A stretch of 37,293 nucleotides of DNA, taken from NCBI GenBank assembly GCA_944323325.1, contig CALUSF010000004.1, forward strand, positions 1 through 37,293, given 5' to 3'. This DNA comes from Candidatus Gastranaerophilales bacterium. Its GTDB lineage: Bacteria; Cyanobacteriota; Vampirovibrionia; Gastranaerophilales; Gastranaerophilaceae. The notes under the pieces are model-generated. The model had not been told where the DNA came from. It searched no databases and saw only the letters and a list, made by a program, of their open reading frames with translations. Numbering within the stretch: the stretch's first letter is position 1; every line of letters starts with the position of its first letter. The position numbers and the translations under genes were made by a program. Positions 26,550 to 31,213 of the stretch are shown in pieces.

Positions 26550-29102
26550 ATGACTTGTTTTTTCAGAGATCAGCAGGAAGCTTTATTTAATGCAACAAAA
26601 CCTTACCAGTATGTCGGCGGCGAGTTTTTATCTTATAACAAGGATTTTGATTCCGCTAAGGTTAAATTTGCGTTTGTTTTTCCGGATAAATATGAAATAG
26701 GAATAAGTAATCTCGGGGTCAGAATTATTTATGACAGAGTTAATTCAACCGACGGGTACCTTGCAGACAGAGCCTATGCACCGGAGCCGGATTTTAAGCC
26801 TGAATTCCTGTACGGTGTAGAATCAAAACGGGCGCTTAAGGATTTTGACGGTATAGGGTTTTCGCTCCAATATGAATTGTCTTACCCTACGGTTTTGAAA
26901 ATGCTTGAGATGTCCGGAATAACCGTAAGAAATGATGAACGTAAAGAAGACGAGCCGATAGTTCTTGCGGGCGGTCCGTGTACTTTTAACCCGCTCCCGA
27001 TGAGCAAATTCATTGATGTTTTTTGTATCGGGGACGGTGAAGAAATGATGGTTGAAGTCTGTGAGTCTTTGGAGCGCACAAAAGGACTTACCAGAAAAGA
27101 AAAAATTGAAGATTTATGCAGGATTAAAGGCTGTTGGTCGGCAAGTATTGCTCCTTCTTCTGATAAATTTGTATACTCTCCCGCAGAAAAACGTATTGCG
27201 CCTCTTAAGCTTGAATATACTCCGACAGCTTATCCGATTCCGTTTTCAAGTTCGGTTCATGACCGCGCCATTGTGGAAATAAGGCGCGGATGCGGACGTA
27301 TGTGCAGATTTTGCCAGCCCGGCCATGTCACGTTGCCTTTAAGAGAACGGCCGGCAGAGGATATAATTAAAATCACAAAAGAACTCGTTAATAATACCGG
27401 ATACGATGAATACTCGCTTTTATCGCTCTCATCAAATGATTATTCCAATATTAAAGAAGTTATAAAGGAATTGGCGGTTGATTTTGACAAACGCAAAGTT
27501 TCCGTTTCCCTTCCGAGCCAGAGAATTGACGGATTTAGTCTTGAACTTGCAAATCTTGTTCAAAAGGTAAGAAAATCGGCAATGACACTTGCGCCGGAAG
27601 CCGGAAGCCAGAGACTCAGAAATGTTATTAAGAAAAATATCTCGGAAGAGCAAATCATTGATGCAGCTCTGACTCTTTACGCTAACGGATGGTCAAAAAT
27701 AAAATTCTACTTTATATCCGGACTTCCGACAGAAACATTGCAGGATATGGATGAATTAGCGGAACTTCTGGGAAAAATTAAATACCGCTCAAAACTTATT
27801 AAACAGGAAAAAGGTTTAAACTACGGCCTTGAGATAACCTGTACGCTTTCTATCTTTGTTCCCAAACCGTTTACTCCTTTTCAGTGGTGTCCCCAAATGG
27901 ATTTGGAAGAGGTTACGGCACATATTAATTATTTGAAAGAAAAAATTAAGCACCTTAAAGGGGTTAAGATTAATTATCACGACAAATACGTTTCGCAAAT
28001 AGAAGCCGTTTTGACACGCGGAGATGCAAAATTATGCAAATATATAGAAGCACTTTATAAAAAAGGGTGTTATCTTGATGCCTGGGGAGAATATTTTGAC
28101 AAAAATGTCTGGGCGGAAACCGCAAAAGAATGCGGGTTTTTGTTGGAAGAATTGGCTCAAAAAGAATACGGGCTTGAAGATACGCTTCCCTGGGATTTTA
28201 TAAATGTCGGATTATCAAAAAACTGGCTGCAAAATGAATACAAAGAAGCTTTTAAACAAACAGAACCGTTCAATTTTCAGCCGACGTGCGAAAATAAATG
28301 CGTTAATTGCGGGGTTTGTACATCTTTAAAAACGCATAAAATTCTTGCAAAACCTTATACGGCATCTGAAGAAGCGCAAAAATTAAGTTTGGAACCGCTT
28401 CTGGATCCGACAAAAACTCATATCAGTGCAGTTACATATAAATATCGTCTGAAAATTACCAAAAAAGGAATTTTAAGGTATTTTTCGCATCTGGATTGGC
28501 AAAATACTTTTCATAAAGTTCTCGCAAGAACGGGTTTAAATGTTGCGTTTTCTCAGGGGTTTAATCCCGCAATGAAAGTTTCCATGGGAATTGCGCTTCC
28601 TTTGTTTGCCGAAAGTGAAGGCGAATTGGTTGATATTGAGATATACGATAACTTAAGCGAAGAAAATATTAAAGAAATTATTAATCCTAAATTACCCGCA
28701 GGTGCTGAAATAATCGCGGTTAAACAAATCGAAAAAAGCTGTCCCGCCGTAAATATAGAAGCTCAGTGGGCGGAATACAGGATAACTCCGTATTATAAAT
28801 CAAATGAAAACGGCTTTTACGGTTTTGAAAATTTTAAAAATGATGTAGAAAAAGTTCTGTCCGGTGATAAAATTTTAATCACGAAAAAAAATAAAAAAGG
28901 ATTAGACAAAACAACGGATTTCAAAAGATCAGTAGGGACGCACAGATTTGAAAACAATTGCTTGTATATTTATCTTAAAACCGGTCAGGGCTCGGAAATT
29001 CCGGCATTTAGAGCCGATGATTTGATGAAGCTTGTTAACCCGAATCGAATTTTTGATATAATGCGGGTTAGATTTCTGACGGAAAATCTTCACGAGATAT
29101 AG
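26550..29102 (+). CDS. B12-binding-like radical SAM protein fused to DUF2344
   Basis: An 850-aa two-module protein. An N-terminal region, with the segment FVFPDKYEIGISNLG and a cobalamin-binding-like fold, precedes the radical SAM core. The 4Fe-4S motif is CGRMCRFC at about 248-255 (RRGCGRMCRFCQPG). A second Cys cluster CENKCVNCGVC lies at about 579-589. From about 630 to the end a DUF2344 domain follows (FSHLDWQNTFHKVLARTGL; GFNPAMKVSMGIALPL). The combination matches the TIGR03960/TIGR03936 pair, often next to RNase E/G genes and split or fused in different lineages. The substrate is unknown; tRNA/rRNA modification has been suspected. It follows secA by 83 bp. Rightward; no partner gene follows. 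Confidence 0.9.
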   Translation: MTCFFRDQQEALFNATKPYQYVGGEFLSYNKDFDSAKVKFAFVFPDKYEIGISNLGVRIIYDRVNSTDGYLADRAYAPEPDFKPEFLYGVESKRALKDFDGIGFSLQYELSYPTVLKMLEMSGITVRNDERKEDEPIVLAGGPCTFNPLPMSKFIDVFCIGDGEEMMVEVCESLERTKGLTRKEKIEDLCRIKGCWSASIAPSSDKFVYSPAEKRIAPLKLEYTPTAYPIPFSSSVHDRAIVEIRRGCGRMCRFCQPGHVTLPLRERPAEDIIKITKELVNNTGYDEYSLLSLSSNDYSNIKEVIKELAVDFDKRKVSVSLPSQRIDGFSLELANLVQKVRKSAMTLAPEAGSQRLRNVIKKNISEEQIIDAALTLYANGWSKIKFYFISGLPTETLQDMDELAELLGKIKYRSKLIKQEKGLNYGLEITCTLSIFVPKPFTPFQWCPQMDLEEVTAHINYLKEKIKHLKGVKINYHDKYVSQIEAVLTRGDAKLCKYIEALYKKGCYLDAWGEYFDKNVWAETAKECGFLLEELAQKEYGLEDTLPWDFINVGLSKNWLQNEYKEAFKQTEPFNFQPTCENKCVNCGVCTSLKTHKILAKPYTASEEAQKLSLEPLLDPTKTHISAVTYKYRLKITKKGILRYFSHLDWQNTFHKVLARTGLNVAFSQGFNPAMKVSMGIALPLFAESEGELVDIEIYDNLSEENIKEIINPKLPAGAEIIAVKQIEKSCPAVNIEAQWAEYRITPYYKSNENGFYGFENFKNDVEKVLSGDKILITKKNKKGLDKTTDFKRSVGTHRFENNCLYIYLKTGQGSEIPAFRADDLMKLVNPNRIFDIMRVRFLTENLHEI

Positions 29103-29103
29103 A

Positions 29104-29117
29104 GGATGCGGAAAAAG
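29104..29117 (+). repeat. GGATGCGGAAAAAG repeat, copy 1
   Basis: A 14-nt word just after the radical-SAM stop codon. Its exact reverse complement occurs at 30783-30796 and 31105-31118. The remaining 29118-29337 spacer holds no gene that could be recognised. Confidence 0.6.
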
Positions 29118-30780: not shown

Positions 30781-31119
30781 GACTTTTTCCGCATCCTTTT
30801 AGAGTTTGCGGAAAAATGTGCATTTTTCTCGCAAACTCCCGGGAACGGTTTCAGGGGTAAAAAATTTTGCTGGAAGTATACACTACAAACATGAAAGTAA
30901 AGTTAAAAAGGTTGTGTGCTATCCCGCACACGACCTGATGTTCACACACCTAAGGTCGGATTTGAAAAGCGGATTGTCGGCAGAGTGCGAAGTGCTTTTG
31001 CGAAGCAAAACACGCAGACACGTTTAACGCCGACAACCAAGCTGGTTCGAAAAACAGCGGGAATGAGTTCTACGCAACTCCCGCTCACGCATGTCATTTT
31101 TCGACTTTTTCCGCATCCT
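30781..31119. repeat. Highly structured 339-bp intergenic element flanked by 17-bp direct repeats
   Basis: GACTTTTTCCGCATCCT occurs at both ends (30781-30797 and 31103-31119). Between them are at least four strong stems: 30803-30818 with 30821-30837; 30910-30919 with 30926-30935; an outer stem 30974-30981 with 31029-31036 enclosing 30992-31001 with 31005-31013; and 31047-31054 with 31097-31104 enclosing two-part stem 31056-31069 with 31076-31085. No reading frame here resembles a protein. It is either a dispersed repeat element or a structured RNA. It does not show RNase P RNA, tmRNA or SRP RNA signatures. Confidence 0.65.
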
Positions 31120-31213
31120 CTTTATGTAACAAATTGTAAAATATTATTGTAATTCTATAAAGTTTTTCTCAATAATGTCGTTAATATAAAAGTAAAATTC
31201 TTATGAGGTTAAT

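Follow-up and report, generated by a model that had tools for sequence, protein, structure and literature searches.

The intergenic element and its boundaries

Between divergent genes of the 37,293-nucleotide window (the whole stretch of Candidatus Gastranaerophilales DNA analyzed here) lies a structured sequence that raises the question of whether it is a new RNA or a mobile repeat, both of which had been proposed from the letters alone for positions 30781-31119. The site has minus-strand rpsF-like and ssb-like genes to its left and an M48 peptidase gene (PF01435) to its right. No gene falls at the element in the open reading frame list of the window. The bounds of the element were corrected to 30802-31120, with positions 30781-30797 belonging to the remnant of another copy. 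Its features are as follows.

30802-31120, plus strand: the complete element of 319 bp, enlarged relative to its 157-bp family, with ends set by family consensus and target duplication
30798-30801, unstranded: left target-site duplication TTTA, equal to 31121-31124; a 4-bp duplication is the family rule
31121-31124, unstranded: right target-site duplication TTTA, followed by TGTAA, the preferred flank
30802-30838, plus strand: H1, a hairpin in which the left terminal inverted repeat GAGTTTGCGGAAAAA is joined to an inverted copy of itself, with covarying pairs in other copies
30839-30853, plus strand: linker with the near-invariant motif GGAACGGTTTC, from the alignment of 29 copies
30854-30908, plus strand: 55-bp insert without counterpart in the standard copies with which it was compared
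30910-30935, plus strand: H2, central hairpin with conserved loop TGC-TATCCC-GCA; 13 of 16 pairs changed on both sides
30942-30950, plus strand: conserved unpaired motif TCACACACC, from the alignment of 29 copies
30958-31118, plus strand: H3, right-end hairpin, broken in the window copy by two inserts; covariation is for the uninterrupted form
30969-31042, plus strand: nested 74-bp palindromic repeat of another family; 29 similar sequences with at least 7 different outer stems, all fully paired
about 31055-31091, plus strand: hairpin insert in the H3 loop (GCGGGA...TCCCGC), missing from standard copies
31106-31120, minus strand: right terminal inverted repeat GAGGATGCGGAAAAA (read inward), from end matching
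30781-30800, plus strand: remnant of an older neighboring copy's right end, recognized as a direct repeat; its last 3-4 bases overlap the TTTA duplication

Folding of the 319-nt element gave -99.7 kcal/mol compared with -81.6 +/- 5.1 for dinucleotide shuffles (z -3.5), and the long stems with a nested inner stem described by the sequence-only reading proved real (H1, H2, 30969-31042, a further stem of the window copy at about 31057-31086, and an outer stem). The outer stem, that of H3, is long-range, GGAT at 30958-30961 pairing with ATCC at 31115-31118 and inwards.

Elsewhere in the window, a lone 15-bp family end (GAGGATGCGGAAAAA, 29102-29116) lies just past the preceding gene's stop and is not attached to any element. 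The 70 bp to the right of the element (about 31125-31195; TGTAACAAATTGTAAAATATTATTG...) match many AT-rich places in all genus genomes at 75-80% identity, and may represent a widespread promoter-like motif containing TGTAA repeats.

A dispersed family in Gastranaerophilales

BLAST recovered about 25 fragments of the element from its own genome, a copy number that rests on searches, and 34 of the 57 genomes searched (own included) held matches, nearly all of them belonging to the same genus and two to other families of the order. The species collection, scanned with a pattern, yielded at least 118 stretches. Among the matches listed, the titles that name a lineage read Gastranaerophilales, Melainabacteria, Cyanobacteria or Candidatus Adamsella, with few exceptions; one pattern match labeled Chloroflexi (L138) did not match the covariance model and was taken as chance. 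No element match was found in the phage and plasmid collections. One copy was observed in a contig classed as viral (L229:11239-11471), beside phage-like genes and a NAD-kinase-like gene, and may mark a prophage border. Gastranaerophilales are non-photosynthetic Cyanobacteriota, gut-dwelling relatives of cyanobacteria, and the present family adds a well-delimited repeat, with defined ends, duplications and empty sites, for this little-studied gut lineage.

The standard copy is 157 bp long with inverted ends GAGTTTGCGGAAAAA and GAGGATGCGGAAAAA. Of 83 two-ended copies, 64 measured 155-159 bp and 42 exactly 157 bp, the window copy being the longest. Nearly all copies were intergenic (62 of 65), and their arrangement relative to genes was balanced (17, 8, 14 and 8 across the four arrangements), with no orientation bias. 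The copy data were drawn from the matches listed in metagenome assemblies, in which copies were often located at contig ends, and the repeat therefore probably breaks such assemblies.

One copy that lacks a duplication was also observed, across many species in several genera, between a gene for a 179-aa tyrosine recombinase (PF00589) and a HipB-like/HipA-like pair (L113, L116, L124, L162, L170, L172, L186, L192, L193, L200 and, in part, L273-L285). Beyond the recombinase, the genes vary and include restriction-modification genes, an HTH plus peptidase-like pair and radical SAM. This is a shuttling defense-type locus, and it probably carried the element between lineages.

Evidence for transposition

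Evidence of insertion came from the flanks. The 4 bp to the left and right of the element were equal in 63.7% of copies, compared with 3.2% when partners were permuted, and identity of 2 bp or 3 bp alone was near background, which fixes the duplication length. The target preference is symmetric, approximately TTACA-NNNN-TGTAA, and stands out most at the sixth position of either flank, a G in 19 and 24 of 54 cases. For three copies, all other than the window's, the joined flanks had contiguous empty-site counterparts in close relatives; these were base-exact at the junction for two (L078/L377 and L023/L375), one of them a copy of 208 bp that carries the 55-bp insert; a small gap was seen in the third. 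At another locus (L083) the element splits a short reading frame, which the joined flanks restore, reading MAREEKVFTLRIKNELFERIKKEAENNKRSITKHIEYILEKSLEK. Derivatives have moved as well: a 99-bp form that retains little except the two ends still has TTAA on both sides (L094), and copies bearing the 55-bp insert have target duplications in four genomes (G000, G011, G026 and G027).

Together with many copies and terminal inverted repeats, the duplications and exact empty sites bear out the earlier suggestion of a dispersed, inserted element. These features of a MITE are present: the repeat is short, non-coding and dispersed, with terminal inverted repeats, a constant target duplication and empty sites in relatives. 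It is very probably a MITE-type non-autonomous transposon. Counted against this assignment are that no autonomous partner was found, that no empty site was shown for the window copy, that the divergent families seem to carry 3-bp duplications (judged by eye, eight of their complete copies have 3-bp flanking repeats) and that the interior is conserved more strongly than a MITE requires. For the window copy, 29 relatives were examined: in none does the M48 peptidase gene lie near rpsF, and other genes stand upstream of rpsF there.

Origin of the window copy

As a short non-coding DNA transposon, the element would be moved in trans by a transposase that is encoded elsewhere and acts on its two ends, and the ends would appear to be all that matters to that enzyme. 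The window copy inserted next to an older copy's end, and it holds three internal inserts, among them a dispersed palindromic repeat of a second kind. The 55-bp insert displaces the left arm of the H2 base and is common to a mobile subfamily, and at the site of the H3 loop insert other genomes have a different hairpin (L092 and L094).

The flanking direct repeat that had been noticed in the window is real (GACTTTTTCCGCATCCTTTT, at 30781-30800 and 31103-31122, 19/20 identical), but it does not represent a target duplication; it is what is left of an older neighbor, namely its right end, the rest having been lost. In another locus (L095) a copy follows the right end of another copy with ATTA between them, and the same end-to-end arrangement explains the direct repeat at 30781-30800. 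A similar arrangement was seen in L085.

The nested 74-bp repeat (GCGGATT...CCAAG) forms a separate dispersed family, seen also in L099-L106, L145 and L210, in tandem in L102 and inside other repeats in L100 and L101. GGCAGAG and CGTTTA are conserved in it, a target duplication is not obvious, and it favors AA before its left end.

A conserved three-hairpin fold

The plan of the element consists of three hairpins: each end pairs with an inverted copy of itself, the left as H1 and the right as H3, and H2 is placed between them. In a standard copy, the first two hairpins had a folding z of -9.0. In an alignment of 29 copies less than 93% identical to each other, 93.5% of cells were paired, a percentage biased toward this structure relative to slid versions, since the structure was written from one of the aligned sequences. 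Changes on both sides were seen in 27 of 53 pairs, and the cells changed on both sides numbered 160, compared with a mean of 48 for shuffles and 15-24 after partners were slid by 1-3 columns. RNAalifold recovered the same three hairpins unaided, plus GGT/ACC closing H2, and GGAACGGTTTC, TATCCC and TCACACACC were nearly invariant across the 29 copies. The three-hairpin fold is real and unusually well conserved.

The covariance model, of which the calibration was short and the E-values are rough, detected divergent elements built on the same plan elsewhere in the order, in other families (about fifteen in G042, for example), with unrelated H2 sequences; in a sample of the phylum it matched in the element's own family only. 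In Rfam 15, no family matched the element at the gathering score, and an E-value threshold gave weak chance matches only.

RNA or DNA basis of the fold

Why the fold is kept may be explained at the level of RNA or of DNA. An RNA function of the element is possible: a 157-nt core could be transcribed, its fold, with GGAACGGTTTC, the TATCCC loop and TCACACACC, acting as RNA while transposition only spreads it. Such an RNA might act on genes or in its own mobility, its near-invariant loops binding a host or transposition partner, and it would be conserved across Gastranaerophilales families. The changes on both sides of 27 of 53 pairs, far above the shuffled and slid controls, would fit this, as would the near-invariant unpaired motifs, a fold that stays while its sequence changes, and the recurrence of the plan with unrelated H2 sequences in other families. 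However, covariation in a multicopy palindromic mobile repeat is by itself no proof of a functional RNA, even where the covarying, conserved secondary structure expected of one is present. An RNA on the element strand would tolerate G-T only, not A-C, yet H2 showed no wobble preference (25 A-C mismatches against 33 G-T, 26 of the latter at one position); H1 and H3 lean the other way on mismatches (23 to 8). The balanced gene orientation, the lack of an Rfam match, and the transposition of both end-only (99 bp, TTAA) and insert-broken H2 derivatives also count against a mobile structured RNA, which we consider unlikely. We favor a DNA reason for the fold, whether palindromic ends, palindrome correction or propagation from intact master copies; palindromes may also stay paired through DNA-level correction. 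Of the earlier proposal of a new RNA, strong stem covariation stands, but in a multicopy mobile repeat, which leaves the RNA reading a possibility; the either/or that had been set up between covariation and many copies does not separate the readings, both having been found. Covariation across many independent insertions nonetheless offers a good test of RNA versus DNA upkeep of bacterial MITE folds.

A single-copy riboswitch or cis-regulatory RNA of the neighboring gene, working through two pairings of CGACCT, is highly improbable. The competing pairings that the sequence-only reading described are both present in the window sequence, CGACCT (30931-30936) being complementary to AGGTCG (30953-30958) as placed, but an exact alternative of at least 6 nt occurs in just 7 of 29 non-redundant copies and is not a conserved switch. 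Moreover, the element is dispersed, inserted and present in many copies, and the fixed orientation to neighboring genes that characterizes a cis-acting RNA is not observed. Hairpins at both ends could also suggest a palindrome mobilized as a single strand (HUH/Y1, IS200-IS605 or REP/RAYT-like), and for the nested module at 30969-31042 alone, its location after A-rich sites and its lack of an obvious duplication would fit such a mechanism. Y1 elements make no target duplication, whereas the main element is bounded by terminal inverted repeats and a 4-bp duplication of constant length, and there is little chance that it belongs to this class.

The predicted mobilizing enzyme

Elements moved by a DDE transposase are recognized by inverted ends, a short duplication of constant length and a symmetric target, and for the MITE-type transposon we infer a mobilizing enzyme of this type. 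The partner would be expected in the form of a transposase gene flanked by GAGnnTGCGGAAAAA. No autonomous partner was found by paired ends with a duplication in all fetched loci, by PF01609 in relatives, by an IS1182-type protein search of 65 genus and 117 order genomes, or around solitary ends in two genomes. One 2.2-kb pair of ends (G029) encloses two other genes and no transposase.

IS1182-type elements of the same order (DUF772 plus DDE domains) have ends of the form GAGGnTGnnnAAAAAGT, compared with GAGGATGCGGAAAAAGT in the element; examples are GAGGCTGTCCAAAAAGTAAAA in G034 and GAGGATGACTAAAAAGTAAAG in the 348-bp relics of G006. These ends differ from those of the element at three or more inner positions, and the IS1182-type copies showed no clear 4-bp duplication and had matches in 3 of 65 genus genomes. 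The repeat does not share its terminal inverted repeats with an IS1182-type element: the closest ends have GAGGnTGnnnAAAAAGT in common but differ in the inner bases. The likeness of the ends may serve as a lead, and an IS1182-like enzyme is a tentative candidate with somewhat less than even chances. G006 also holds a second short family, about 348 bp long (L241/L263, L248/L261, L264 and L265), with ends GAGGGTGTCCAAAAAG / GAGGATGACTAAAAAGTAAAG and decayed transposase sequence; it is a non-autonomous IS1182-type relative.

Comparison with known repeats

Searches of an open-license library of papers turned up no description of repeats in Gastranaerophilales, and the repeat is a known kind of element, apparently in a new family. 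It was compared with BOX, Correia/NEMIS, CIR, ERIC and RUP by published architecture. BOX of Streptococcus pneumoniae (modules A/B/C, 67-637 bp, proposed partner IS ISSpn2) is likewise small and intergenic, with terminal inverted repeats, target duplications, optional inner modules, a stable predicted fold and nesting, but its module layout is different; in the Gastranaerophilales element each end is its own hairpin (PMC3049150). Correia/NEMIS of Neisseria also comes in two size classes, set apart by an internal block of roughly 50 bp, and shares the terminal inverted repeats and the duplication on insertion, whereas its ends are 24 bp with 5'-TA and its stem forms by the two ends pairing together, in contrast to three separate hairpins here (PMC2229807). 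CIR of Caulobacter and Brucella shares arms plus linker and a phylogenetically conserved structure, but has two arms, a GANTC motif and no established terminal repeats or duplication (PMC2229807). By description alone, the element may also be likened to Nezha, a cyanobacterial MITE from the same phylum, for which ISNpu3-like elements are the proposed mover (PMC3049150, PMC10969869). On these comparisons, BOX would appear nearest to the Gastranaerophilales element in modularity, Correia/NEMIS in size classes and CIR in arms.
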